Shown in pieces: positions 1,783 to 37,610 of a stretch of DNA of 42,364 nucleotides (position 1 is the first letter of the stretch; each line of letters starts with the position of its first letter). The DNA is taken from positions 1 to 42,364 of the IMG/VR virus record IMGVR_UViG_3300037674_000157; one strand, given 5' to 3'. The notes beneath the pieces were generated by a model. It saw only the letters and a list, made by a program, of their open reading frames with translations. It was not told the DNA's origin and ran no database searches. This DNA comes from a virus. The position numbers and the translations under genes are program-made.

Positions 1783-4590
1783 TTATTCTCCTTTATTTTC
1801 TAATTCTTCAACTTTCGCTGAAAGTTCTTGTATTGCTTTAGTTAGCATAGGTATTACTTGGCTATACATAAGTTTGTAAGACAGTTCATTACTTGTATTA
1901 ACAATATGGTCATCTGTCCAGCCTATTGATTCTTCTATAGCTTTAATTTCTTGGGCTATAAACCCTACGTGTTTTATTTTTGATTTTTTAGAATGATCTC
2001 TTTCGCCAAAGTTTTCATCTGTAGGTTTATAATAATTACTTCTATTATCCCAAACATAAGTAACTGGTCGCATTTGATTAACAAAGTTTAAACCTGCATT
2101 ATCGGGTAAAGTTTCTATATCTGTTTTGTCTCGTTGGTCAGAGCCTACAGTCCAATCCACTTTTACTTCTGATACTGCCGTACTAACATTACCAATCACT
2201 ACATTATTACTTCCTGTAGTGACTGTTGTTAAACCATCAGACCCTGCGTCATAACCAATCATTACATTATTACCACCACTGGTTATTTTATCTCCCGCTT
2301 CTCTTCCTACACAACAGTTATTTATGCCAGAAGTATGGTCGTTCATAGCTTGAAAACCGATTGCAGTATTTCCATATCCTGCGGAGGCTGCTGCCATTGT
2401 TTCATTACCGAGTGCTGTATTTTGTGAATTTGAAGCACTAGCACCACCATTGCTGTTCTTGCCAATATATATAGAGTCATTTCCTGTTGTTTCGGTATCA
2501 GCAGCACCTGAACCTATACAAATAAGGTTTCCTGCGTTTGTTATTGCTGTACCAGCTTTATAACCAACAAACACACTATTACTAGCATAAACACCTTCGG
2601 TAGCTTTACCTGCTTCAAAACCAACAGCAGTCAGATAATTCCTTGTAGTTGCTGCGTTTAGAGCTTTAAAACCAACTGCCGTATTAGAAACACCTGTCGT
2701 GTTTGCTGTTAAAGCTTCATGACCAACGGCAGTGTTGTTAGACGCTGTCGTGTTTGCATCTAAAGCATAAGTACCTACAGCTATGTTTGCAGCACCTGTA
2801 GTATTTGCTCCTAAAGCACCAGAACCTACTGCTATATTATATGAAGCAGTTGTATTAGCATCTAAAGCTGCCATTCCTACAGCCACATTTTCTGAACCAG
2901 TTGTAGTTGCTTCCATTGCTGCTTTTCCTACAGCTACGTTATATCCTGCGGTTGTGGCTGTTGTTAGTGCGTTATATCCAAGAGCAGTATTAACCCCACC
3001 TGTAGTGATAGCATCTCCTGCATAAGCACCAACGGCTACATTTTCTGTTCCTGTGGTGTTTACTAACAAAGCATCTCTACCGACTGCTGTGTTGTTTGAT
3101 GCTGTGGTATTTGAGCCTAATGCCCTAGAACCGAAGGCGGCATTGTTAGCACCTGTGGTGTTTGCAGCTAAAGCCTGTTTGCCCGTAGCCGTATTCTCTG
3201 CCCCAGTAGTGTTAACTGTTAATGAAGCATAACCAACGGCTACGTTGTTAGCTGCTGTGGTGTTTGCTGTTAAAGAATTATGACCAAAGGCTGTGTTGTT
3301 ACCTGCTGTGGTATTTGCATTTAATGCAGCATAACCAACACCAACATTATTTGCTCCAGTTGTATTAGTAGCAAGAGAGTGGGCACCAACTGCCACATTA
3401 TTTGATGCTGTGGTATTAGAATCTAAAGCATTTTTACCAACTGCTGTATTCTCTGCACCTGTTGTGTTTGCTACTAAAGAATTATGACCAACTGCAGTGT
3501 TGTTTGCTGCGGTGGTATTAGAATTCAAGGCTCCATTACCCACTCCTGTATTATTAGCACCTGTGGTGTTTGTGTATAAAGCATTGCCACCAACGGCAGT
3601 GTTGTACGAAGCTGTCGTGTTTAATCTTAAAGCAGATGCTCCAACAGCGACATTTGTTGCCCCTGTGCTGTTTGTTAGTAAAGAAAGATGCCCAACGGCT
3701 GTGTTACTGGCTGCTGTGGTGTTAGCTGCTAAAGCAGAATAACCAAGTGCTGTATTATTATCACCAGATGTTAATGCTGCAAAAATATCTACACCTAAAC
3801 CAGTATTATAGTTAGCAGCATCAATAGTTCCTGTAGTAGCATCTCCAATCATTATGGAGCTTGTACCAAAAGTCTTAGCATCTGATAAATCATTTATAGC
3901 AGAAGCTCCACCACCACTTGCATCTTCAAAAGCTGGAGGAGAACCTGCACCTGTTGAAGTTAATACTTGACCATCTGAACCAGTAGCAATAGCTATAGGG
4001 TCTCCATCTGCATCATAACTAATTATGTTTCCGTCAGTTCCACCTGCCATTTTAGCTAGTGTTATTTGATTATCAGCTATGTGTGCTGTGTCAATGCTTC
4101 CGTCTGCATAATGTTCACTATCTATAGAATCATCTGCAATTTTTGTTCCATCTACTGCGTCAGCTGCTAGCTGTGCAGTATCAACTTGACCATCATCTAT
4201 ATGCCTAGTAAGAATACTATTTTGGGCTATCTTAGTGCCGTCCACAGCATTATCAGCTATATTGGCTGTTGCTATTGTATTGGCTGCTATCTGGTCTGTT
4301 GTTACTTGGTTGTCATCTATGTGTTGTGTTAAAATTGCGTTGTTTGCTATTTTTGCTGAAGTAACATTAACATCTACTATATTAGCTGTAACAACTGCAT
4401 CATCAGCTAGTTTAGCTGCTGTGACTGCATCTGCTCCTAGTTGGTCTGTAGTTACTTGTCCATCATCTATATGTCTAGTAAGAATACTATTCTGTGCTAT
4501 TTTTGTTCCGTCCACCGCATTATCTGCGATATTACCTGTCGCAATAGTGTTAGCTCCTATTAGTGCGCTTGATACTTTTGTTATTGCCAT
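1783..4590 (-). CDS. Long tail fibre with YadA-type repeats and C-terminal S74 intramolecular chaperone
   Basis: A 935-residue fibre. The ATG at 4590 follows an AGGAG site with the AAATAA spacer. Residues 1-200 are IADNAV/IDDNQV-type shaft repeats shared with the 1527-residue fibre. Residues 279-652 are 22 tandem 17-residue units of the form NTAVG..AL..NTTG.N (Hep_Hag/YadA head type), followed by degenerate copies. These repeats in YadA-like adhesins build left-handed beta-roll trimers. From about residue 810 the protein has the S74 pattern: SDQRDKTDI (Ser817, Lys822), then HVGFIAQE and a C-terminal coiled coil. In this family the chaperone trimerises and folds the fibre, then cleaves itself off with a Ser-Lys dyad in front of the serine, which would release about 119 residues here. 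Of the fibres visible in full, only this one has S74. Confidence 0.93.
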   Translation of the reverse strand: MAITKVSSALIGANTIATGNIADNAVDGTKIAQNSILTRHIDDGQVTTDQLGADAVTAAKLADDAVVTANIVDVNVTSAKIANNAILTQHIDDNQVTTDQIAANTIATANIADNAVDGTKIAQNSILTRHIDDGQVDTAQLAADAVDGTKIADDSIDSEHYADGSIDTAHIADNQITLAKMAGGTDGNIISYDADGDPIAIATGSDGQVLTSTGAGSPPAFEDASGGGASAINDLSDAKTFGTSSIMIGDATTGTIDAANYNTGLGVDIFAALTSGDNNTALGYSALAANTTAASNTAVGHLSLLTNSTGATNVAVGASALRLNTTASYNTAVGGNALYTNTTGANNTGVGNGALNSNTTAANNTAVGHNSLVANTTGAENTAVGKNALDSNTTASNNVAVGAHSLATNTTGANNVGVGYAALNANTTAGNNTAFGHNSLTANTTAANNVAVGYASLTVNTTGAENTATGKQALAANTTGANNAAFGSRALGSNTTASNNTAVGRDALLVNTTGTENVAVGAYAGDAITTGGVNTALGYNALTTATTAGYNVAVGKAAMEATTTGSENVAVGMAALDANTTASYNIAVGSGALGANTTGAANIAVGTYALDANTTASNNTAVGHEALTANTTGVSNTAVGFKALNAATTRNYLTAVGFEAGKATEGVYASNSVFVGYKAGTAITNAGNLICIGSGAADTETTGNDSIYIGKNSNGGASASNSQNTALGNETMAAASAGYGNTAIGFQAMNDHTSGINNCCVGREAGDKITSGGNNVMIGYDAGSDGLTTVTTGSNNVVIGNVSTAVSEVKVDWTVGSDQRDKTDIETLPDNAGLNFVNQMRPVTYVWDNRSNYYKPTDENFGERDHSKKSKIKHVGFIAQEIKAIEESIGWTDDHIVNTSNELSYKLMYSQVIPMLTKAIQELSAKVEELENKGE
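2635..3756 (-). repeat. 22 tandem 51-bp units encoding YadA-type 17-residue repeats
   Basis: Within the S74 fibre, 22 successive in-frame 17-codon units can be read without a gap, from an Asn codon at 3756 to a Tyr codon at 2635 (22 x 51 = 1122 bases). The unit consensus is N(T/V)AVG..AL..NTTG.(N/S/E). Codons for the same residues differ between units (Thr-Thr and Ala-Val vary in the third base), so the array is old and held by selection on protein, not a fresh DNA expansion. Units 15 to 18 are the most divergent. Degenerate units continue leftwards to about 2230. Confidence 0.9.
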
Positions 4591-4599
4591 TTATTTCTC

Positions 4600-5163
4600 C
4601 TAAGGCTGTGCTGGCCAGTCATAGACTAAGGCCGCTAATGCGTCCACGTCTGAGGCTGCATCTATTGCTGTGCAATGTGTATTTGCTTTTGTTCTTACTG
4701 CTGCTCTATATGTAGTATTTGCACTAGGTACTGCTGTTCCACCTTCTGCTGCTCTTATCACCATCCAATCTGTTGGTTGTAATAATGTTGCTGCAGTACT
4801 ATTTATACTATTTTTATATCTTGATTTTAATCCTTGAGCTGCCACTTCTCCTTCTGTACCTAGGTCATTGTCTTCATCCTCAGACGTGTATAAAGTATCT
4901 GCTAATGCTTTAGCTGTAGCTGTACCATATGTTGCAGTAACTGTATCACTTGCAAAAGTATAAATTTGATCTGTATTTATGTAATTCCTTTCGTCTTTAT
5001 AATTAGTGCTATCTATAACCACCTCATAAATACCTAAGGCTTTTAACTCAGAACTAGTCCACAATCCAAATATATTGGAAGGGTACTGTATGTTGCCTAT
5101 GGTCAATGCCTTAGGTCTTGTGTATAGTTGTGTTATTGTGTCTGATTCTACTCTAGCCCACAT
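4600..5163 (-). CDS. Fibre-block protein with DUF4376-like C-terminus, candidate fibre assembly protein
   Basis: I start this gene at the ATG at 5163 (MWARVESDTI, 187 residues) because a consensus AGGAG lies 7 bases upstream, beyond the stop of the previous gene at 5178. A longer open frame to 5232 would overlap that gene and lacks such a site. The N-terminal half (residues 1-75) looks like the XkdW/tail-associated type. The C-terminal part has the pattern L.PTDWMVIRAAEGG..VP...T.YRAAVR followed by a short helical tail. This is the signature I associate with DUF4376-type and other tail fibre assembly or chaperone proteins. It sits directly between two adhesin genes, as expected for a fibre chaperone. 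The exact family is from memory, not searched. Confidence 0.7.
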   Translation of the reverse strand: MWARVESDTITQLYTRPKALTIGNIQYPSNIFGLWTSSELKALGIYEVVIDSTNYKDERNYINTDQIYTFASDTVTATYGTATAKALADTLYTSEDEDNDLGTEGEVAAQGLKSRYKNSINSTAATLLQPTDWMVIRAAEGGTAVPSANTTYRAAVRTKANTHCTAIDAASDVDALAALVYDWPAQP

Positions 5164-5177
5164 GTTATTTCTCCTGT

Positions 5178-6203
5178 TTATAGTGCCGTTCCTGGCACTC
5201 CTGTTGATGTTACGAATGGGTTTTCTGCCCATGCCGCATATATAAATTTTTGACTATTATGATTTATTGTACTTGTTCCATAACCTGACACTACACCTTC
5301 GGGTCTTACTCCAAACCCATTACTGAATATATCTATAGCTTGATCGTCAGCTTCAGCAGTTGCTGCATTAGCACTAAGCACTGAACCATTTGAATTAAAA
5401 GCTCTTCTTTTAATATCATATATATACCAATTTCTACTTGCTGTTTCGGTATTTTTAATCATCACAAAAGCGGGTTTAAATCCTGTATACGCAAATGGTC
5501 CCTCTTGTGTCTGTCCATTACCAACATAACTGCCAAACCTACTGTAGCCTTGTATCTCTGCCCATAAATAAGCTATAAAAGTTTCTGTATTTTTATTAGT
5601 ATGATCGTTTGTTCCTACTGAAAAAACACTAGTTGTTGGTTCTGTATCATTCCAGAATGTTGCATCATCAGCAAGAGCGTCACCTTCATCTAAATAAAGA
5701 TAATCTGTTGCAGGATCTGCAGCCACATCCCTATGATATAGTGCCCAATGACCTGTATTACTTCCACTCCTCATTTTACAAATCATCATAGCAGGTTTTA
5801 CTCCCAAACTATGTGATATTGTACGAGCTGAACCAGTACCTGTATAACTAACAATATCAAATCCTGCAGTTGCATGTTCTTTCCATTGCCAAGCTACATG
5901 CTCAGAAGTATTTTGGTTTATTCCCACATTTGAACCAAGAGTAAAACCATCTGAATTAAAAGCTGTTAGATGTGCTGAACTATCAGATTCAGAATGAACT
6001 GTACTTGGAAGCAGTTTCTTCTGCACTCCCCTTACTGAATCATACGCTTGATGTTGATACCCTGTAGTTCTATTCTTAATCCAAACTAAATCAGGTTGTA
6101 AATCACTATTCCCAGTATTAGTTAAGGATAAAGTACTTCCATTTCCTGTGTAGGTTTTAATTTGAAAGTATACTGAAGGATCATCTATTGTTGTGTAAGC
6201 CAT
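5178..6203 (-). CDS. DUF7483-like tail adhesin (two repeated modules)
   Basis: A 341-residue protein starting at 6203, with its ATG overlapping the upstream TAA by one base (TAATG). It carries internal repeats of a module with the pattern YTGNGS..., PDLVWIKN or KPAFVMIKN, then W.LY(D)..RG/RR, and a FNSDGF or FSNGFGV motif. One copy is near residues 15-110, a second starts near 115-170, and a third near 225-320. This layout is what I remember as the DUF7483 family of phage tail-associated proteins, often next to a LamG protein, as here. A carbohydrate or surface ligand binding role is inferred from that context. There is no signal peptide and no catalytic motif that I can see. Confidence 0.75.
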   Translation of the reverse strand: MAYTTIDDPSVYFQIKTYTGNGSTLSLTNTGNSDLQPDLVWIKNRTTGYQHQAYDSVRGVQKKLLPSTVHSESDSSAHLTAFNSDGFTLGSNVGINQNTSEHVAWQWKEHATAGFDIVSYTGTGSARTISHSLGVKPAMMICKMRSGSNTGHWALYHRDVAADPATDYLYLDEGDALADDATFWNDTEPTTSVFSVGTNDHTNKNTETFIAYLWAEIQGYSRFGSYVGNGQTQEGPFAYTGFKPAFVMIKNTETASRNWYIYDIKRRAFNSNGSVLSANAATAEADDQAIDIFSNGFGVRPEGVVSGYGTSTINHNSQKFIYAAWAENPFVTSTGVPGTAL

Positions 6204-7768
6204 TATCCATACTCCGCTAAATTTTTAGTGCATAAGGCATAATAGCCTGTGGGTACTGCATGCTCAAAGTTTCCATATCCGTTTGCATCTGCATTACCAC
6301 TACTAGGAGTATAGGGTGGAGAACCAAAATTAAATTCTGCAGTACCTGTACCACTACCACTATACAAAGAAAAACAAGGTAGTAATAAAGTTGCTCCACC
6401 ATCTTCTCCTGTTAATAAATTATTTGCTACTGGGTAAGCTCCTGTTACAGGATTACCCACATTTGATGAAAGTGATCCATCATCATACCATCTAAAGTCT
6501 CCTGTATTAGTAGAACCTATGTTTCTACCTACAAAATATTTTCCATTATCCATATCTATAGCTAGTCCAAAAATATTACCTACTTCCATGTGGCCTGTAT
6601 TATACCCTGTTTGGGTATTAGATGGTTGACCACTTGGTTGAGCTGCTGCAGATGTGTTATTGAATACATATCCTCCGCTAGTAAATCCCCATTGTTTCTT
6701 ACCTTGACCGGCAGCCTCGCCGGCAGTACTGGCATATCCCCAACTTGCATCTGAATTTGCATTTTCAGTTGCAGATGCATCTCGTATACCAAAAAACCAA
6801 TTAGTTTTAGTAGAACCTGTTGCAATTACTTTAATTTCGTAGTACCACTTTCCAGAGCCTACTCCCATTGTCATACTAATATCTCCGTAATTAGCTGCTA
6901 CACTTGTATAACTTAAAGCGCCTTTACTAATAACAGTGCTTACTCCTGCCCTTCTATCATTAATATTAAGAGTACAAAAATTATTAGTAGGAGTATCTGC
7001 AGATTGATCTACTGCTGCTATGTTGTTTTCAGCAAAATCAAAACCACTACCTGTGCTTGCCTCATTATCTCCTAAATTTCCTGAATCAGCAAAATCCATA
7101 TAATATCCACAGTTTCCATGACTACCACTATATTTTTTAGGTTTCCATATTCCACTATCTTCATCAAACTCACCAAACTCTGTAGGTGCTAAAGACTGTC
7201 CATCTACATGATGTACTTCTGCTAAGTAACCACTAAAAAAGGCAGATGCAGTATAATAAGCTAAGTCCTCACCCCATGACTGATAACCGGGACTACCAAA
7301 AGCCTCTGTTAAAGTCATTCCACCATTTTGTGTAATATTAGGAGCAGTTCCCCAAGTTTGCTCAACTCCATTTACATATAATCTTAATCTATTCGCAGCT
7401 GTTCCATCTGTTGAGTCAATTCTTAATACGATATGATACCAAGCTGATGCATCTTTATAAACAGCATTAGTTATAGGTTGTACACTATTCCAAGAAGAAT
7501 CTCCTGAGTACAGTTGTATTTGATCGCTTGCATTAAAAAACATTCTAGAGTATCTTGCTGAATTACCAGCAACTAAAAGATAGTTTGCCCCTAGTTCAGT
7601 TCTTTTTATCCAAGAAGAAAATGTCCCTATTTTTGCATTAGTTGGAGTAGTGGAAATTGAAGCACTTTTTAAATACTGAGAATTATCTGCTTCTAGTCTT
7701 ACAGAATTTTCTATATCATATCCTGTAGATACGCTTCCTCTATTTGCTAGTCTATCCGTAAAAGCCAT
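6203..7768 (-). CDS. LamG/concanavalin A-like plus SPRY domain tail protein
   Basis: I prefer the ATG at 7768 (MAFTDRLANR, 521 residues), one base after the TAA of the large fibre. A GTG at 7795 would add nine residues and overlap the fibre. Neither start has a good ribosome site, so reinitiation after the fibre is likely. Residues about 22-192 form a LamG-like jelly roll (VRLEADNSQYL, FSSWIKR, WYHIVLRID, RLRLYVNG, SGYLAEVHHVDGQ). Residues about 300-470 look like a SPRY domain (GKWYYEIKV, WFFGIRDA, GLAIDMDNGKYFVG). Both folds bind sugars or peptides. With the neighbouring DUF7483-like protein it probably decorates the tail and contacts the cell surface. Domain calls are by motif reading. Confidence 0.85.
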   Translation of the reverse strand: MAFTDRLANRGSVSTGYDIENSVRLEADNSQYLKSASISTTPTNAKIGTFSSWIKRTELGANYLLVAGNSARYSRMFFNASDQIQLYSGDSSWNSVQPITNAVYKDASAWYHIVLRIDSTDGTAANRLRLYVNGVEQTWGTAPNITQNGGMTLTEAFGSPGYQSWGEDLAYYTASAFFSGYLAEVHHVDGQSLAPTEFGEFDEDSGIWKPKKYSGSHGNCGYYMDFADSGNLGDNEASTGSGFDFAENNIAAVDQSADTPTNNFCTLNINDRRAGVSTVISKGALSYTSVAANYGDISMTMGVGSGKWYYEIKVIATGSTKTNWFFGIRDASATENANSDASWGYASTAGEAAGQGKKQWGFTSGGYVFNNTSAAAQPSGQPSNTQTGYNTGHMEVGNIFGLAIDMDNGKYFVGRNIGSTNTGDFRWYDDGSLSSNVGNPVTGAYPVANNLLTGEDGGATLLLPCFSLYSGSGTGTAEFNFGSPPYTPSSGNADANGYGNFEHAVPTGYYALCTKNLAEYG

Positions 7769-7769
7769 T

Positions 7770-10700
7770 TTAGGTTTGTGCCATATTTTGGACACGTCCG
7801 ATTTCTTGCCAGACGGATCCGTTGTATCTAAATGAGAATATATCAGTTTTATTTGCTGTCGCAGTTACAGTTGGTGCTGTACTTGCTGCGAACTCGAATA
7901 TTGTATTCCAAGCCATAGTATAAGCTGTTCCACCTTGTGCTATTTCCACACTAATAATTGCTCCTTCTACTGGATTAGTTGGCGCTTCCATTGTTGAATT
8001 TGCTGAATTTGCAAAGGCCCAATAAGCATTTGATTTAGTTCTAGCGTCCCATGCGACTGCAGCTGCAGTATTACTATTTTGAGCTAAAGTTGCTTGAGTT
8101 ATTCTTGCTGATTTAGATATTGTTGCATAACCATTAACAGCAAGGGCTGCACCTGAACCAGCTGAAGTTCCTGCATGGTCAATCTGTAAACCGTTAAATG
8201 GGCAATTAGGGTCAGTTATATTGATTCGCGCAAGACCATTTGAAAGAGCGTCATTTCTAGCAGATGTGATTAATAATGCTTGCTCTCCAGCCACCATTCC
8301 TTCTATGTCTAATCTAGCATCGGGAGTTGATGTTCCTATACCTACCTGTTCTCCACTATCAATGGTTATTGCTAATGCATCTGCATTATCATCTATACCT
8401 GTTGATCTAAAAGAAGTTAATGTTCCTGTACTTGTAATATTTGGTTGAGCCCCTGTTGTAACTGTAGCTGCTGTACCACTTGTATTACCTGTAACATTAC
8501 CTGTTAATGCTCCTACAAATGATGTTGCTGTTAAAGCTCCAGTACCTGCATTATATGTAATTGCTGCGTCTGTTTTCGGTCCTAAATCTCCTGTTGCTGA
8601 TTCGAAAAGAGCAACATAAGAAGATGTATCTGTTGTATCTGCAACTGTTACTGTTGCTGGTACAATATTTGCTGTACCATCAAAAGAGGTACCACCTATT
8701 GTTCGTGCGGTTGCTAAAGCTGTTGCTGTTCCAGCTAATCCTGTTGTATCTTGGTTAAGTGTATTAACTGTTAAGTCTATATCACCTGTAGCATCTTGAT
8801 ATGTTACAGTAATACCACTTTCAGTATTAGTTGATGTAAACATAGCTCCAACGATATCTTGTGCTTGTTCGTCTGTTAATACTACATTATCTAGTACATC
8901 TGATACTAGTGCTTTCTTAAGTGCGGAATCTGTAGCATCGTAGATCATAAAATGATCTGCCCCAGCTGCTGTTACTTGTGTTAATCCTGAGATTCCTGTT
9001 GCTGGGAATGTGTTAATTTCTGTTTGTGCGTGAGTTCTTGCTTCAACTAGTACTCCTGTTGGAGGTGCTGTTCCAAATGTTAGGGTTGTTCCACTAACAC
9101 TATATGTATCAGCTTTTTGATATACACCATCAAAGAATACTTGTACATTATTTACGTGTCCGGGTGCAGCTGCTAATGTAAGAGTAGTATCACTATTATC
9201 TCCTGTCATTGTATTTACAGCCATGCCTGCACCAGCTACTGCTGCGCTTACATGATAAGTTACTAGACCACGACCACTTACTGGGGCGTCTACCATTGTT
9301 AAAGTTGTTCCACTTACTGAGTATGCATCTTGGTTTTGATATACACCTTCAATAAATACCATTAAATCATTTTCATCTGAAGGAGTTGTGTCTAGAGTGA
9401 ATTCTGTTTCACTACCATCACCTGTAAATTCTTTTCTTGTAAAGGTGCTTGCACCTGAACTTCCACCAATTTCTCCCCAGCTATCAGTATAGCCTTCAAA
9501 TTTACTATCTGTAGTATTATATCGGAACATACCAGCAGCCGCAGATCCAGGTCTTTGACCAGTTGTTCCGTCAGGCATTCTTATTGCCCCAGTACCACTG
9601 AGTACTAAATCGTCAGCTAATTGATCTCCTGTAATTTGATTATCGTCTATATGTCTAGTAAGAATACTATTTTGTGCTATCTTAGTTCCATCAACTGCAT
9701 TATCAGCTATATTGGCTGTTGCTATTGTATTTGCGGCTATCTGATCAGTAGTAATTTGGTTGTCATCTATATGTTGAGTTAGAATAGCATTATTTGCTAT
9801 ATACCCAGAAGCTATTGCAGTTCCTTGCCATACTCCTGTTCCTATTGTTCCAACAGTAACTAAATTTGCTGCTGCAGTGATAGAAGCTTGTGTTCCACCA
9901 GTTACTGTAGCTGCTGTTCCTGAAGCATTTCCTGTAACATTTCCTGTTAAGTTACCTGTAACAGAAGTAGTAGTTAGTACTCCTGTACTTGGATTATAAG
10001 TTAATCCTGTGTCTGTTTCTATTCCTTGTGTACCCGTAGCTCCGTCTACAAAAGCGGGATAAACTGTTTCGTCTGTTGAATTATTAGCTACTGCTGTTAT
10101 GCTAGTTGCTAGTGCTGCAGTACCTGAAGTGTCTTGACTACCTGATGCGTTAACACCTGGTAGGTTAATATTGGCAGACCCGTCAAAGGATACTCCACCA
10201 ATAGTTCTTGCTGAAGTAAGAGTTGCTGCAGAGCCAGTAGTATTTTGACTGCCTACTGCATTAACACCCGGTAGGTTAATATTGGCAGACCCGTCAAAGG
10301 ATACTCCACCAATAGTTCTTGCTGAAGTAAGCGTTGCGGCAGATCCAGTAGTATTTTGACTACCTACTGCATTAACACCAGGTAGGTTGATATTTGCTGT
10401 ACCATCAAAAGATACGCCCCCTAAAGTTCTTGCTGTTGCTAATGCTGTTGCAGTAGCTGCTAAACCAACTGCTATATTGGCTGTACCGTCAAAAGATGTT
10501 CCACCTATTGTTCTAGCACTAGCTAATGCTGTTGCTGTTGCGGCATTACCTGTTGTGCTTCCAGAGCTTCCAGAAGTATTACCTGTTACATTACCAGTAA
10601 GATTACCAGTAACATTACCTTCAAGAGTTGCTACTAATGTGCCTACGGCATAACCTGTACCACTTGTATTTACAGTAGTTGTAGGCGCTGCCTGATTATC

Positions 10701-12353
10701 TTTAAATAATTTCCATTTTCCGCTATCACTAGCATCTCTAAATAATCCTGAATAAAGGTCTTGAGAACCACTAGTGTCATATAGACCATATAGTCCTATG
10801 TCTACTGCATCTGCAGCATTGTTACCGCTCGCTAGTGCTACTAACGGGTCGGCAACTGTAATTGTTGTGCTAGAAACTGTTGTTTGAGTTCCAGCAACTG
10901 TTAGGTTTCCTGCTATTGTTACATTAGTAGGTAAACCAAAATTAATTTTGTTATTTGAAACTGTTGTTTCTATTTCGTTTGCAGTACCTTCAAATGTAAA
11001 AGTATCAGTACCAACTGTAACAGTATCATTTGAACCACTATCTGCAGCGATTGTAAGTACTGAACTTGTAGCTGCTGTACTTGCGGCTGTAATACGTCCT
11101 TGAGCATCAATAGTTATTACTGGGATTGCTGAACTTGAACCATAGGCTGCAGGTGTTACTGCTGTATTAGCTAATTTTGCTGCTGTGACTTGATCGTCAG
11201 CAATGTGAGCAGTATCTATACTTCCATCAGTATAGTGTTCACTATCAATAGCATCATCAGCTATCTTAGCTCCTGTAACTGCATCTGCTCCTAGTTGGTC
11301 TGTAGTTACTTGTCCATCATCTATATGTCTAGTAAGAATACTATTTTGGGCTATCTTAGTCCCGTCTACAGCATTGTCAGCTATATTACCTGTGGCTATT
11401 GTATTAGCCGCTAGTTCTGTAGTTGTTACACTACCTGCTACTATTGAAGCTGTTACAACAGCATTAGTTGCTAATTGATCTGCTCCAACAGCGTCATCTG
11501 CAATCATAGATTGCTCTACTGCGTCTGATTGAATTGTTCCTGCGGCAGTTACATTTCCACTACCGTCAAATGAAGGTGATGTCCAAACGACATCTCCAGT
11601 CATTCCTATTGTTCTTCCTGTTGCTAAAGCTGTTGATGTTCCCGGTACAATATTTGCTGTACCATCGAACGAAGTTCCACCTATTGTTCTAGCCGTTGCT
11701 AGTGCTGTTGCTGTTCCAGCTAGTCCTACTGCTATATTGGCTGTTCCATCGAATGAAGTACCACCTATAGTCCTTGCTGTTGCTAATGCAGTAGCTGTAG
11801 CTGCTAGTCCTGTTGTGTCTTGGTTTAGTGTTCCTATTACTAAATCTACTGTACCATCACCATCTTGATATGTTGCTGTAATACCTGTTTCAGTATTACC
11901 TGTAAACATTCCACCTGCTATATCTTGTACGTTTTCTGTTGTTAATACAGCATCTGTTCCCCAAGATATATCTGTACCATCTGATGTAAGTACTTGTCCA
12001 TTACTTCCTAAAGAGAGTAAAGCAGGGTTTCCACTTGAATCACCATAAAGTATTTTACCTCTAGCTATTCCAGCTAGTTGTCCTATGCCAACGGAATCAT
12101 CTGCTATTTGATCAGCAGTTATTTGGTTGTCATCTATATGTTGAGTTAGAATAGCATTATTTGCTATATAAGTTGATGTTATTGTGCCCGTTAAGATTTC
12201 TCTTGCTGTAATATTATTTTCTGCTATTAAAGTAGAAGTTATCGCATTAGTAGCAATTTCTCTAGCTGTTATGTTATTTTCTGCTATTAAAGTAGAAGTT
12301 ACAGCGTTAATTGCTGGAAAAGTATCTACGGGTCTTTTACCTATATATGCCAT
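7770..12353 (-). CDS. Very long tail fibre (1527 residues)
   Basis: The ATG at 12353 overlaps the upstream TAA by one base (TAATG). The N-terminus MAYIGKRPVDTFPAINAV is a common fibre attachment start in marine phages. The shaft is built from several repeat types: ITSTLIAENNITARE units (60 bp apart near 12217 and 12277), IADNAVDGTKIAQNSILTRH units shared with the S74 fibre, and about ten copies of a TARTIGGTSFDGTANI unit, three of them in a near-identical 111-bp tandem (10161-10493). Middle residues about 1000-1120 hold a FTGDGSETEFTLD.TP module present in many phage fibres. The C-terminus (about 1370-1527) has VGIGTSTPDARLDIEG and then a knob-like region ending with FSFRYNGSVWQEIGR. No S74 chaperone is present. 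It is probably the main long fibre. Confidence 0.9.
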   Translation of the reverse strand: MAYIGKRPVDTFPAINAVTSTLIAENNITAREIATNAITSTLIAENNITAREILTGTITSTYIANNAILTQHIDDNQITADQIADDSVGIGQLAGIARGKILYGDSSGNPALLSLGSNGQVLTSDGTDISWGTDAVLTTENVQDIAGGMFTGNTETGITATYQDGDGTVDLVIGTLNQDTTGLAATATALATARTIGGTSFDGTANIAVGLAGTATALATARTIGGTSFDGTANIVPGTSTALATGRTIGMTGDVVWTSPSFDGSGNVTAAGTIQSDAVEQSMIADDAVGADQLATNAVVTASIVAGSVTTTELAANTIATGNIADNAVDGTKIAQNSILTRHIDDGQVTTDQLGADAVTGAKIADDAIDSEHYTDGSIDTAHIADDQVTAAKLANTAVTPAAYGSSSAIPVITIDAQGRITAASTAATSSVLTIAADSGSNDTVTVGTDTFTFEGTANEIETTVSNNKINFGLPTNVTIAGNLTVAGTQTTVSSTTITVADPLVALASGNNAADAVDIGLYGLYDTSGSQDLYSGLFRDASDSGKWKLFKDNQAAPTTTVNTSGTGYAVGTLVATLEGNVTGNLTGNVTGNTSGSSGSTTGNAATATALASARTIGGTSFDGTANIAVGLAATATALATARTLGGVSFDGTANINLPGVNAVGSQNTTGSAATLTSARTIGGVSFDGSANINLPGVNAVGSQNTTGSAATLTSARTIGGVSFDGSANINLPGVNASGSQDTSGTAALATSITAVANNSTDETVYPAFVDGATGTQGIETDTGLTYNPSTGVLTTTSVTGNLTGNVTGNASGTAATVTGGTQASITAAANLVTVGTIGTGVWQGTAIASGYIANNAILTQHIDDNQITTDQIAANTIATANIADNAVDGTKIAQNSILTRHIDDNQITGDQLADDLVLSGTGAIRMPDGTTGQRPGSAAAGMFRYNTTDSKFEGYTDSWGEIGGSSGASTFTRKEFTGDGSETEFTLDTTPSDENDLMVFIEGVYQNQDAYSVSGTTLTMVDAPVSGRGLVTYHVSAAVAGAGMAVNTMTGDNSDTTLTLAAAPGHVNNVQVFFDGVYQKADTYSVSGTTLTFGTAPPTGVLVEARTHAQTEINTFPATGISGLTQVTAAGADHFMIYDATDSALKKALVSDVLDNVVLTDEQAQDIVGAMFTSTNTESGITVTYQDATGDIDLTVNTLNQDTTGLAGTATALATARTIGGTSFDGTANIVPATVTVADTTDTSSYVALFESATGDLGPKTDAAITYNAGTGALTATSFVGALTGNVTGNTSGTAATVTTGAQPNITSTGTLTSFRSTGIDDNADALAITIDSGEQVGIGTSTPDARLDIEGMVAGEQALLITSARNDALSNGLARINITDPNCPFNGLQIDHAGTSAGSGAALAVNGYATISKSARITQATLAQNSNTAAAVAWDARTKSNAYWAFANSANSTMEAPTNPVEGAIISVEIAQGGTAYTMAWNTIFEFAASTAPTVTATANKTDIFSFRYNGSVWQEIGRVQNMAQT
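10161..10493 (-). repeat. 111-bp direct tandem repeat inside the large fibre gene
   Basis: A segment starting TAGGTTAATATTGGCAGACC on the plus strand occurs at 10161 and again at 10272. A third, more diverged copy starts at 10383, so the period is exactly 111 bases (37 codons) each time. Copies one and two are almost base-for-base the same, including third codon positions, so this duplication is recent compared with the other shaft repeats. In-frame length means gain or loss of a copy changes fibre length without breaking the gene. Confidence 0.9.
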
Positions 12354-15048: not shown

Positions 15049-15693
15049 TTATGAAACAGTAAAGGTTACATCTGCCCAACCACTGTCTCCACTTTTTAAC
15101 GATTCACATTGTGCAATAGTAATACTTAAATTATCTAAAGATACTGAACTGCCCGCTGAGTTTAAAGCAACATCACTAGAATCCTTAGCTGATGCTGAAA
15201 CAGTCATGCCCAAATTTCCTAGTTTTGTTTTTACTAGTCCGATAGTACTAAACGTTGGGTCATTTTCTACCCAACCTTTGATTGTTGTAATATTCCATTC
15301 ACGCATTAGTCCTACTGCCAATATTTTATGATCTGTGAAGTAACCATTACCTCTATGAGTAGGGTGTATAATATCTGCTCGAACCCATGCTTCTCCAGAA
15401 ACCTCAAAACTATATACTCTTATACCTACAGCAACACCTGCGGGGTTTACTGAAATATAAGTTCTTATAAGAGGTTGATTATTAGGCATAGCATAACCAC
15501 TTTTAATACTAGCGTCTGTGCCTGTTTCATTTTGTGTTATTCTTGCAGAAAACCACTTTAAACGTTCGTCATAAGTAAATGTTCCAACTTCTGGACTTAA
15601 AGGATAATCCTTCCAACACTCCATCCAAAATGTGTAATCGCTTTCTATCATGGGTCTATATACCCAACTATTATTTGCTGTAATTGTAGTCAT
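15049..15693 (-). CDS. GNAT-like acetyltransferase domain protein in the tail module
   Basis: A 214-residue protein starting at 15693, overlapping the TAA of the giant tail-tip gene by one base (TAATG). Residues about 100-150 show the GNAT core: a strand (AWVRADIIHPTHRG) followed by HRGNGYFTDHKILAVGLMRE. This fits the acetyl-CoA loop pattern (Q/R)xxGxG/A and its helix. Next come TTIKGWVENDP and a helix TFSTIGLVKTKLGNLGM, as at the end of the fold. The last 50 residues are beta-rich and not GNAT-like. GNAT proteins transfer acetyl from acetyl-CoA to amines. In phage tail regions the substrate is not known, and it may instead be a structural protein with this fold. Class call is fair, activity unproven. 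Confidence 0.7.
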   Translation of the reverse strand: MTTITANNSWVYRPMIESDYTFWMECWKDYPLSPEVGTFTYDERLKWFSARITQNETGTDASIKSGYAMPNNQPLIRTYISVNPAGVAVGIRVYSFEVSGEAWVRADIIHPTHRGNGYFTDHKILAVGLMREWNITTIKGWVENDPTFSTIGLVKTKLGNLGMTVSASAKDSSDVALNSAGSSVSLDNLSITIAQCESLKSGDSGWADVTFTVS

Positions 15694-18600
15694 TAGTATT
15701 TACCTCCAACCGTCCAGTCTTTGACAGTTAATAATTCATTTTCTGTTTCTACATAGATAACATCTGTGTAGCCTTCTATATATTCTTTCTTGCCTTGATA
15801 TTCTTCTGCTAGTATCCATTCTCCCTCAATTAGTATTGGGTGATCATTTGTTATTTCTAGTTCATCTTCTAGTATGTAGTATCCTTCTCGTTGTTTATGT
15901 ATTATATCTACCACTTTAGTTTTGCCTTCTGGGCTATCTACTTCGTCTCCTATTTCTAATCCTTCAGGTAACATAGCAGGAGTTAGGCATTTACCACCAC
16001 CGCCACCAGAACCTGTTAAATCAAGTATAGAACAAATTAAAATTATTGTATTACTACTTGCAGTATGAGTAATTGTTTTTGTTATTGAAGTAGCAGCACT
16101 ATGTGTTGCTGTTGAAAAAGTCCATGCATCATTACCACTGCCCGTATTAGTTATTGCAAAACCTTCAGTACTTGATCCATCATTTGCTTGAATATTAGTA
16201 CCATTTCTAAGCCATGTGTAGGTTGCTTCATATGTCCCTAGACTTGGGTGAGTTATACTTAGTGTTCCTGTAGTGTTAGTTGCGTTAAAAGTAGATCCAT
16301 TATATGTTGAAAAGTTAGAAGCTGCGGCTCCTGCAGTTATTACAATCGGGCCCCATTCTAAATTTGCGTTTGCGTATGCATCTGCAGAAAATCCTGCTAG
16401 TCCTGTTATGTCAAATTCCCCTGCCGTTTGGTCTGCAGTAGCTCCAGATTCTATTCCATTTAATTTATTATTTGCTGTACTATCAAGGGCTGCTAAGTTT
16501 GCATATTGGGTATCTTGTGTTGTTAGATCAATTGTTCCAGCTCCATTTCTAGGAAATGAAATTGTTGTGCCACTTATAGAGGGTGTTCCTATAACTACAT
16601 TAGTAGGCAAAGTATATTGGGTATCTTGTGTTGTAAGAACAACATTACCACCACCACTAGTAAAGGTTATCTCTCGTCCACTTACGCTTCCGCCTGTAAG
16701 AACCCCACTAGGTAATGAATAATTATTTGCATCTACAGGTGGTTTTGAGCCGCTAACACTACCATAGTCAATACCTGTAATAAATCCTGTACCATTTGTT
16801 AGCTCATTATTATTTGTTATACTACCCGCACTCCAAGTACCTGCGGCAGTAGCTATATATAAAATATTATTAGTAGTATCATAGTAAGTCGAGCCTATTA
16901 CCAAGCCACTAGCTGCGGGTCTGCTACCTATAGGGCCTACTCCTGCTGTGATAGTAGGTACTTGAGAATTTGCATAGTTACTATCAGTAAGACCAAGCAC
17001 TCCTAAACCAGATAAATTTAGATTTATACTCCATTCATCATTCCATATACCTGGTACTGTATAGTCTAAATCTCCCATATAAAATTGTGGATAAGTGAAT
17101 GTCCAAGTACTACTTCCCGCAGGCTTAGTTCCAATAGACCACCAAATAGATTTATCTGCTGCAGCCGTCGGTATTGTAGTTATCCAAGCTCCTGGAGTTT
17201 CGTCTGTTCCTGCAGTTGGAGTGCCTGGGTTAGTCCAACCAGTCTGCAAGTAATAAATTGTAGTAGTTCCTTTACCCTCATCTCCTACATCTCCTTTCTT
17301 AGATTTACTAAAACTGTATTTTTGAGTGTAGTTTACTCCTGATGCTTTAATTACATAAGTTACTATTCCTGAATCTGATCCTGTTCTAACTGCTGTTGGA
17401 GTATAAACTCTTTGATTATTTACTGTAGAAGCAGCTACTGTAATATCATCTTGACCACTTGTTTGTGAAGGTGTAGCAGATATTACTTTATAAGTATTTG
17501 TACCTACATTCCCCCCTGTACTCCCATCATCAAATGTTAATTGTGTTGCTCCTCTATATGCTTCTATTTGAGTTGCCCCGTCTGCTTCATCACTATCTGC
17601 TACTGTTCCATTATTTGCTGCAGGGAAAGGGTGTGAATTATTTGTTAGAAATATAGTAATGGCATTAGTTCCCTCTTTTACTGCAAATATACTTATAGTA
17701 TCAAAAGCTACTTCTGTTTGATTTCCTTCAGCTACTCCTACTTTTACTAAAGAAGGATTAGGACTGAAACCAGCAAAAGTAGCAGGTACAGTAAAATTAT
17801 GAGTATGTGGACTATCTTCATTTATATAAGTACCATCTGGACTAGCAACTTGATGCCCCGTAAATTTAAAATAAGGATTATCAAAGTTTTGTGTAGTTGC
17901 AGTTAATAATAGATTACCTGCAGCGGGGGCTGAGATTACTCCATCTTCGTCATATACTATTGAATAATCTGCTGATGTTAATTTTACTACTTTAGAAGCT
18001 GCCCCACTTGATCCGGGTTCTGTTAAGGGCACTACACCTGACCAGTCATTTGCATCAATAGTATCTTGAGTAGCGTTTGCATTTGCTAATGCTACTGCAC
18101 TTATATGATGCACGTAATCTCCAGAAGCAGGTATTTCTAATTTCCAACTATCTAAAGCTGCGTTTCCATCTACTAATTTTGTTGTTGTTCCAGTTTCTAC
18201 TAAAGCTCCCTCTTCAAAGTTATAGTAAAGAGCATTATTTGGCTTAACAGGTGCTGAAGAACTATCATTTCTTTGGTATAAATCTATTTTTGCATATTGA
18301 TTTGGAGTATCTCCATCTACAATAGCTGTTACCCATTCTCCATGAGCAATGGTATCTGTATTTGTATTACTTGAAGCAGTTGCCATAGTAACCCATCTAA
18401 CCCCATTATCAACTGTTGTAGCCATTTTAACTGGGCTCCATTCGTCCCAGGCTCCTGAAGTTGTTTCTGTTAATGCTTTAGTGCTAAAAGTATAAGTAGA
18501 AGTTTTATCTGCCCCATCTCCATCTGGAAGGGCAGGAGCAGTACTAGAATTATTATTAAGTTTGTATAAACTAACAATGATATTATTTAATCCAGCTGTT

Positions 18601-35600: not shown

Positions 35601-37040
35601 TTAACTAGCTTTGTACTGAAGTGCCCAAGCTGAAGTGGAAGCATCGATCATATCGGTGAATCCAAGTCTTTGAGAAGCAACAAGTACTCGTCTCTGATTA
35701 GCTACTTCGTAGTCAGATTCGATTGTCATTCCTCTTAGTCGAGGCATTACATAGTTCTTCGCATATACCGCTATGGCATAAAACTTAGCAACTGCTGGTG
35801 TTGCAAATTCATCACAAACTATGACTTTAGAGCCAAAGACTGATCCGATTTCGCCACGTAGTTTAGTAGCTACGTCGCCAACTAGGTTAACATCTTGGAA
35901 TTCTGCATCTTGCAATAAGCTGTAGTACTCTGTAGAGTTAACGATATACGTAACGTCTGCAGGGTTCATTCCATATTTACCCATATTCTTTCTAGCAGCT
36001 AACAAATGTAGTGCTGTTAAAGATTCAGAAGCAAATGCAGTTGCGGATTGAGTTTTGTTAGATCCAGCCATTGTAACTAGTCCTTCAAATGTCGCTCCAC
36101 TTGTGCCGTAAACGCCGTCTGCGTGGTTACCCACTAACAGTGCATTTTCAACACCTCTTGCGTGTGCTCTTACGATTGATTCTCTGATCAAAGGTAGAAT
36201 TGGCAAGATTGCGTCTTCTTCTGTCTCATTACCTAAGTAAGATTGAGAAATAAGTTTTTTAGTTGAAAGAGTTCTTTCAGTTAAGTCGATACCTGACATA
36301 GTTCCGTCATAAGTATCACCTCTTTCTTCCAAGTTACCATGTGGGCTTGAGCCCGTAGCTGTTTGGTTAGCTGTAAATTCAGCATACCCAGCATCTGGTA
36401 AGATTGGGATTATTTGTGTAGCTGACGCCATTTGGATTTCTCTAAATAACGGAGCTAGTACTAATTCTAGTTGAATATCCCTTTCGATATTAGTTGATAC
36501 TGTTTGTTCAAAATCAGCGGAAGAAACACCCACACCTGAATGTGCGTTAACTTTTTCCATTACTGATCTACCCAGTTTAGTATCGTAACCTTTACCTGTA
36601 GCAAGACCCATTACCCAAGCGTCATCAATGTCGCTTTGGAAGGCTTTTTGCCAGTCAGAGTTATTCCTGTCACCAAAGATTCTTTTAGATTCACGAATTG
36701 CTTCGATTTCTTCTTTTTTATCTTTTAGTGCAGACTGAAGTTCATTGACAACTTTCTCTAAGTCTTCATGTTTTTCTGAAACACGTTTTTCAACGTCATT
36801 CATGAGCTGTTCAGCTCCAGACATTCCAACTTCGACTATTGTTCTAACTTTTTCTTGCTCAGCTTCTGTTTCAGCAGTTTCAACTTCTTGTTGAGCTGCT
36901 TTCTCTTCTGCGTCCGCAAGTTCCTTAGCTTTAGTTTCGGCTTGTTGCATTGCAATTTTAGCAGCAGTTGATTTCGCTACTTCTTCTGCAAAAGCTTTTA
37001 AGTCGATATTAGCTTCGGGAACTGTTTTGTCATTTGACAT
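35601..37040 (-). CDS. Nested start: scaffold-major capsid protein without protease
   Basis: Inside the long ORF the codon for Met191 (ATG at 37040-37038) is preceded by AGGAG at 37051-37047 with a 6-base spacer. This is the strongest site of the region and better than the site before the protease start. Initiation here would give a 479-residue protein beginning MSNDKTVPEA, made of the delta-like coiled coil (about residues 13-120) and the capsid fold. This is the normal length and layout of an HK97-type capsid precursor. It would let the phage make many capsid subunits and few protease fusions from one mRNA. Seen in sequence: the ATG and its site. Inferred: that it is used. Confidence 0.75.
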   Translation of the reverse strand: MSNDKTVPEANIDLKAFAEEVAKSTAAKIAMQQAETKAKELADAEEKAAQQEVETAETEAEQEKVRTIVEVGMSGAEQLMNDVEKRVSEKHEDLEKVVNELQSALKDKKEEIEAIRESKRIFGDRNNSDWQKAFQSDIDDAWVMGLATGKGYDTKLGRSVMEKVNAHSGVGVSSADFEQTVSTNIERDIQLELVLAPLFREIQMASATQIIPILPDAGYAEFTANQTATGSSPHGNLEERGDTYDGTMSGIDLTERTLSTKKLISQSYLGNETEEDAILPILPLIRESIVRAHARGVENALLVGNHADGVYGTSGATFEGLVTMAGSNKTQSATAFASESLTALHLLAARKNMGKYGMNPADVTYIVNSTEYYSLLQDAEFQDVNLVGDVATKLRGEIGSVFGSKVIVCDEFATPAVAKFYAIAVYAKNYVMPRLRGMTIESDYEVANQRRVLVASQRLGFTDMIDASTSAWALQYKAS

Positions 37041-37610
37041 ATTAGTCTCCTGTTTTGAGGTTTTACCCTCGGCTTGTGGCGCAGAAACGTTCTGAGCCTG
37101 ATTATTAAAGTGCGTTTTCCACTCGTCGTATTCTTCCATGCTGTCAAATGACTTCGCAACTGAGAACATAGCTCCCTGATTGCAAGGTACACTAACAACT
37201 GATACTTCGAATAGTTCGGCATCTTTTATTGTATATCCATCGGTTTCTGAGTTATAATCTGCATCCTTGACTCTGAAACCGACTGAAAAGGCTCCAAGAA
37301 CACCATCTTTAATAAGATCTTTTATTTCGCCTGCGGACTTAGAGACTTTAGCTCCAAGTTCGAGACCCTTATCTGTAACTTCCAGTGAAGTTGCACGACC
37401 TATAGGTTTATTATAATCATGATTAAATAAAATTATTGGATTAGTTTTATAATTTTCTAGTCCATTCTTTTTTATCCATGCATCATGGTTTATAACGTCT
37501 CCTGCTCGGTCAATCGCATTAGTAGATGCTAATCCTTTAATATTAACACTACCATCTTCGTCCTCGCCAAGAGTTTTGAAAGTATTAGTCCAATGAAAAA
37601 TTTTCTCCAT
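35601..37610 (-). CDS. Prohead protease - scaffold - major capsid protein in one open reading frame
   Basis: A 669-residue ORF from the ATG at 37610. Residues 1-150 are an HK97 prohead protease (S78 family): GLASTNAIDRAGDVI, ILFNHD with His64, GAFSVGF with Ser109, then LFEVSVVSVPCN. Residues about 160-200 are a linker. Residues 203-310 are a long charged coiled coil, equal to the HK97 delta (scaffold) domain. Residues about 320-669 are an HK97-type major capsid protein (LAPLFREIQMASATQIIPIL, FGSKVIVCDEF, LRGMTIESDYEVANQRRVLVASQRLGF). In HK97 protease and capsid are separate genes 4 and 5; here no stop lies between them. Met191 has its own AGGAG, so two products are likely. The terminator follows directly. 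Confidence 0.93.
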   Translation of the reverse strand: MEKIFHWTNTFKTLGEDEDGSVNIKGLASTNAIDRAGDVINHDAWIKKNGLENYKTNPIILFNHDYNKPIGRATSLEVTDKGLELGAKVSKSAGEIKDLIKDGVLGAFSVGFRVKDADYNSETDGYTIKDAELFEVSVVSVPCNQGAMFSVAKSFDSMEEYDEWKTHFNNQAQNVSAPQAEGKTSKQETNMSNDKTVPEANIDLKAFAEEVAKSTAAKIAMQQAETKAKELADAEEKAAQQEVETAETEAEQEKVRTIVEVGMSGAEQLMNDVEKRVSEKHEDLEKVVNELQSALKDKKEEIEAIRESKRIFGDRNNSDWQKAFQSDIDDAWVMGLATGKGYDTKLGRSVMEKVNAHSGVGVSSADFEQTVSTNIERDIQLELVLAPLFREIQMASATQIIPILPDAGYAEFTANQTATGSSPHGNLEERGDTYDGTMSGIDLTERTLSTKKLISQSYLGNETEEDAILPILPLIRESIVRAHARGVENALLVGNHADGVYGTSGATFEGLVTMAGSNKTQSATAFASESLTALHLLAARKNMGKYGMNPADVTYIVNSTEYYSLLQDAEFQDVNLVGDVATKLRGEIGSVFGSKVIVCDEFATPAVAKFYAIAVYAKNYVMPRLRGMTIESDYEVANQRRVLVASQRLGFTDMIDASTSAWALQYKAS
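37038..37051 (-). promoter_or_regulatory. Internal ribosome binding site and start codon for the capsid part
   Basis: AGGAG (37051-37047) plus ACTAAT then ATG (37040-37038), in frame with the long protease-capsid ORF. The site falls exactly in the linker between the protease and the scaffold coiled coil, which is where a separate capsid gene would begin in HK97-like phages. Confidence 0.8.

Follow-up and report, generated by a model that had tools for sequence, protein, structure and literature searches.

The tail-tip protein encoded by a marine, T5-like virus that infects bacteria ends in a 98-residue Hint domain, here called Hint2, which, judging from sequence comparison with its relatives, has an about even chance of being a minimal Hint module of type-B-BIL-like character that trims itself off the protein. 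The window, that is, the whole stretch of 42,364 nucleotides that was analysed, is an IMG/VR virus record carrying a structural module of the T5-like siphovirus type (terminase, portal, protease-head protein, major tail protein, tape measure, distal tail protein and J-like protein), in which the genes for the distal tail protein and the tape measure directly precede the J-like gene. Table 1 collects the features of the region.

Table 1. Features around the end of the tail-tip gene, and C-terminal states of the tip protein in relatives.
Feature	Window positions or records	Strand	Basis
J-like central tail fibre / tail-tip protein, 2792 aa	15693..24071	-	ORF; PHROG 31 'central tail fiber J', E=2.9e-30
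Last fibre domain before Hint, all-beta	15990..16379	-	Alignment; common to Hint-less and Hint1 relatives
GGGGGK linker, Lys2694 the predicted -1 residue of the cleavage site	15990..16007	-	Lys at -1 in 8/8 Hint2 copies; ends of Hint-less relatives
Hint2, 98-residue C-terminal Hint domain	15696..15989	-	Pfam Vint, AF2, Foldseek, relatives, dN/dS
Cys1 (Cys2695), predicted nucleophile of the N-S acyl shift	15987..15989	-	Invariant, 8/8 Hint2 copies
Block B, TNDH	15840..15851	-	Invariant, 8/8 Hint2 copies; [TS]NDH in wider family
C-terminal VGGKY, at the place of block G (V-H-N)	15696..15710	-	8/8 copies
GGAGGT, Shine-Dalgarno-like site of the GNAT-like gene, inside Gly-Gly codons	15702..15707	-	8 bases before ATG
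GNAT-like gene, 214 aa, start overlapping the J stop (TAATG)	15049..15693	-	Family alignment
State: no Hint	L043-L046, L119-L130
State: Hint1 only, ending VHN-GAKP/E	L040, L041
State: Hint2 only	window, L003, L004, L006, L009
State: tandem Hint1 and Hint2, VHN-GGGGGGG(Y)K-CLTP	L005, L007, L008

Two other observations concern the same record. A single 669-aa ORF (35601-37610, minus strand) matches both the head maturation protease and the major head protein families; in its T5-like relatives the match falls on two annotated genes, and the ORF is a possible protease/major head fusion. A 935-aa fibre-like ORF (1783-4590, minus strand), rich in repeats, carries a Peptidase_S74 chaperone near its end; it is the only ORF matched by the S74 profile, which finds nothing in the J-like protein.

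The first-pass annotation had proposed that the J-like protein ends in a Hint domain, at 15696-15989 with Cys2695 as its first residue, and a second reading of the ORF gave the same coordinates and residues. Specifically, the last 98 residues, CLTPAMLPEGLEIGDEVDSPEGKTKVVDIIHKQREGYYILEDELEITNDHPILIEGEWILAEEYQGKKEYIEGYTDVIYVETENELLTVKDWTVGGKY, follow the pattern CLTPAM...ELEITNDHP...VGGKY and come immediately after GSGGGGGK, the glycine-rich linker to which that annotation had also drawn attention. The Hint identity of this segment is settled by several lines of evidence that agree with one another. The Pfam Vint family (PF14623) matches the 98 residues with E=4e-5 and 23.9 bits, just below its gathering score of 27 bits (17 bits for the whole J protein), and one relative, L023, lies above this cut-off at 31.8 bits. 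A profile of 18 relatives retrieves the solved Vint domain 8r2c from the PDB with E=8.9e-5, other Hint structures following at E 0.15-0.4. Structure prediction against Hint folds, the check that had been suggested, leads to the same place: the AlphaFold2 model built on the 18-relative alignment (pLDDT 85.7, pTM 0.75) is mostly beta, and its best Foldseek match in the PDB is again 8r2c (E=2e-4, probability 1.0), followed by the gp41-1 intein, the BUBL BIL2 domain and a C. thermocellum BIL. The best 30 PDB matches are all Hint domains, and among the viral models sharing this fold are Hint proteins, so named, from uncultured phages. A split intein, with its N-terminal part here and its C-terminal part elsewhere, was also considered and is rejected, because the 98 residues already model as a Hint fold with its final strands and a record-wide search matched Hint2 once only. 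For the fibre domain that precedes the linker, the AF2 model is of low confidence (pLDDT 72) and, used as a query, gave no significant match in a PDB fold search; a scan with the fibre end returned contigs already known and none further.

Relatives were gathered by searches with the Hint domain and with the GNAT-like protein encoded downstream. Eight distinct copies of Hint2 were found in marine viral contigs, all of them ending J-like genes and 76-95% identical, or near that, to the copy of the window, while searches of isolated phages and of bacterial and archaeal genomes returned no Hint2 relative. Cys1 and the Thr and His of TNDH are invariant in all copies, and the His-Asn end of block G is absent from all eight, as had been proposed for the window copy. 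Among 48 distinct C-terminal Hints from viral contigs, a family whose conservation of Cys1, Met6 and [TS]ND is partly forced by the search pattern, the position of the Asn is Gly in every case, 38 still have His at the preceding position, and G-x-Y never varies, also where further residues follow. Consequently, the loss of the Asn is probably old and ancestral, and, of the two changes at block G, that of His to Gly alone looks special to the J group. Hint2 is also shorter than its longer relatives, with 98 residues in all eight copies against 126-135, about 11 residues being gone after Cys1 and a second stretch after a conserved Trp; conservation is strong over the whole domain, beyond the catalytic residues.

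The wider family appears in other settings. A protein encoded between the portal and major head genes (L105:2672-4414) of phages whose portal is of the SU10 type ends in a longer Hint relative, so that the family is not limited to tails; another longer relative lies at L071:2210-4324, in a contig that also encodes a portal. The DUF4815 proteins of L017:951-5348 and L021:1074-5203 end in the same Hint family. An unannotated fecal 'phage' scaffold, L033, encodes an RHS-type protein with a Hint and resembles a piece of bacterial chromosome more closely than a phage.

The comparison that bears most directly on function is that between tip proteins with and without the domain. At the same genetic place, with the same GNAT-like neighbour and a related fibre end, four C-terminal states were found (Table 1). 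In 16 Hint-less records the protein terminates GGGK-stop 15 times and GGGKP-stop once, although several of these contigs are near-identical and the independent cases are fewer than 16. Since Lys precedes Cys1 in every Hint2 copy, cleavage between Lys and Cys would recreate the end of the Hint-less protein, and this coincidence, although indirect, is the strongest argument for self-removal: it suggests that Hint2 is an add-on that removes itself. One copy, that of L006, speaks against this reading, as it has no Gly run before Cys1 and keeps the Lys alone.

Further indications come from sequence divergence. Pairs of Hint2 copies differ with dN of 0.03-0.17 and dS of 0.35-1.2 (dN/dS about 0.06-0.24, roughly 0.1), whereas for most pairs the GNAT-like gene and the fibre domain show dN of 0.4-0.9 and dS near saturation; the window and L003 are near relatives throughout. 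In other words, Hint2 has diverged far less than the genes on both its sides, synonymous sites included, a pattern that points to purifying selection on the domain and, most likely, to its exchange as a module between tails.

The nucleotides that encode the end of Hint2 have a second potential function. The last J codons read GGA GGT AAA TAC TAA TG, and the six-base anti-Shine-Dalgarno match of GGAGGT is joint-longest among 28 gene starts of the window. Both GGAGG and the TAATG overlap are kept in all eight Hint2 copies, and Hint-less ends too have GG-rich sites before an overlapping or adjoining start. Whether or not they have a Hint, relatives keep the neighbouring gene beside that of the tail tip; the L007 homologue of this gene matches Acetyltransf_1 just below the cut-off (E=9e-4, 19.9 bits against 20.7), and the window copy has no Pfam match. 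The GGA codon of Gly95 is invariant, but equally so are those of Gly36 and Gly56, so the codons alone prove nothing about a ribosome site. Nonetheless, the likeness of the GGK ends may be due in part to translation signals and to the module having been inserted where an old stop codon stood; the two together can account for the shared ends without any cleavage, which tempers the argument for self-removal. The Shine-Dalgarno site leaves unexplained Cys1, TNDH and the in-gene Lys at -1, where no ribosome site is needed.

If Hint2 is active, the following sequence of events can be proposed. After synthesis of the J protein, Hint2 would fold, and Cys2695 would attack the carbonyl of Lys2694 in an N-S acyl shift, with help from the TNDH block. 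The resulting thioester would be resolved by water or a small nucleophile, releasing the Hint and leaving a fibre that ends GGGGGK, the type of end that Hint-less relatives encode directly. Cleavage without coupled splicing has been reported for type-B BILs, which are devoid of the block G motif (PMC4031507, PMC7765530). We infer the cleavage, its timing and the equivalence of the Hint-less end with the mature end from the comparisons described above. As to the benefit, the domain might be a temporary cap, a folding aid or a tolerated passenger. The stretches missing from the shortened Hint2 might, on the other hand, cost it its activity.

This last point is shared by a different explanation, which we regard as rather unlikely, namely that Hint2 stays on the tip, cleavage having been lost or never needed, and acts as a folded cap, an aid to trimerisation or folding, or a ligand-binding end domain. 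Chaperone-like domains often end phage fibres, as Peptidase_S74 does on another fibre-like ORF here, transient fibre caps have been proposed for Alteromonas phages (PMC10579305), and both the shortening of the Hint and the conservation of the whole domain, rather than of catalytic residues alone, would agree with a structural role. A structural cap, however, has no need of a strictly kept Cys1 and TNDH, and relatives produce this type of fibre end with no Hint at all. It is improbable that Hint2 is an intein-like cassette, mobile or neutral, which recombination spreads and which is tolerated through self-trimming, with no benefit to the phage. Its sharp boundaries, from Cys1 to the stop, its patchy presence among relatives and its low divergence with respect to the flanking genes are what such a passenger would produce, but the dN/dS indicates selection on the protein, though possibly for self-removal, and 98 residues hold no homing endonuclease.

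The first-pass annotation had offered two outcomes for a Hint without splice residues, trimming of the tip or its covalent attachment to a protein, a glycan or a lipid. Trimming at Lys2694-Cys2695 remains the best reading, favoured by the Hint-less relatives that stop at the same Lys. Attachment is very improbable. In such a hedgehog-like transfer, an amine or hydroxyl of the ligand would resolve the thioester, and in principle such a handover of the thioester to a nucleophile, known from Hog domains (PMC7664689), is open to a Hint that lacks block G; however, Hog proteins carry a recognition region after the Hint (as defined in PMC7765530), whereas the J protein ends at its Hint, and attachment is unsupported because no region follows. 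Moreover, no partner is indicated, and the Hint-less relatives manage without. The least probable explanation is that the end has been conserved chiefly because it serves as a recombination joint and carries the Shine-Dalgarno site for the overlapping gene, protein chemistry being secondary. The length of the GGAGGT match, which just two further gene starts of the window equal, and its retention in all copies fit this idea, but the G-x-Y end occurs as a motif throughout the Hint family, even where residues follow, and the site would cover at most the last few residues and not the conserved Cys1 and TNDH.

The self-trimming reading can be extended to the tandem forms. Hint1, the upstream domain of these forms, has a His-Asn end in all five proteins that carry it; the L005 domain matches PT-HINT above the Pfam cut-off, and a five-member profile finds the Clostridium thermocellum BIL structure 2lwy (E=3.3e-10) as the closest solved structure by sequence. 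By analogy with the A-type BIL mechanism proposed in PMC4031507, Hint1 could excise itself first, joining the fibre to the Gly-rich linker, or simply cleave, and Hint2 could then trim after the Lys that follows this linker, giving a similar end. A broader idea, which we consider unlikely, is that marine phages use interchangeable self-removing Hint cassettes as a maturation switch at the end of the tail-tip fibre, with splicing and trimming in tandem, so that all these genes arrive at the same Gly-rich Lys end.

Host binding by a phage is decided at its tail tip. A Hint that trims the tip after assembly or folding would represent a maturation step absent from the literature found; in the open-licence literature, no description of a Hint at a phage tail tip was found. 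If trimming is true, the Hint-less relatives are a ready prediction of the mature end and, if active, the 98-residue form would be an unusually small natural Hint, useful for protein engineering.

Among known systems, Hint2 differs from Vint, type-A BILs, inteins and Hog domains in at least one tested feature each, and from type-B BILs in length. Vint (PF14623; Tetrahymena 8r2c) is its best match in sequence and fold, but the Hint2 score is under the Pfam cut-off, the domain sits in a viral tail protein, and no VWA or Vwaint match was found in the J protein, unlike in Vint proteins. Type-A BILs have a conserved C-terminal His-Asn that Hint2 does not have. In contrast to inteins, Hint2 ends VGGKY-stop, with neither His-Asn nor a following nucleophile nor two flanking parts, and the NCBIfam intein profiles do not match it; with respect to Hog domains, the sterol/adduct recognition region is missing. 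A Hint at the C-terminus of tail-region genes is also found in the 'intein domain' proteins of phage NCTB and in Hint proteins of uncultured Caudovirales. Phage NCTB (L032, LT598654.1), a jumbo phage, has three such genes (4753-6273, 6273-6734 and 8098-12012), two of them adjoining and one with a product of 153 aa; its copies, unlike Hint2, end His-Asn, and no presence/absence series or Hint-less end has been described for them. Self-cleaving intramolecular chaperones (S74 and related) resemble Hint2 in being C-terminal fibre modules thought to leave after folding, whereas their fold and catalytic chemistry differ from those of Hint. Type-B BILs, to which Hint2 is likened by its motif pattern (intein motifs without block G), measure 130-155 aa (PMC9185962) against 98, and Hint2, as the last residues of a phage tail-tip protein, has no C-terminal flank; with them it shares Cys1 and block B, the absence of a His-Asn end and a place in variable proteins, and cleavage on the N-terminal side, as would be expected of Hint2, has been reported for type-B BILs.
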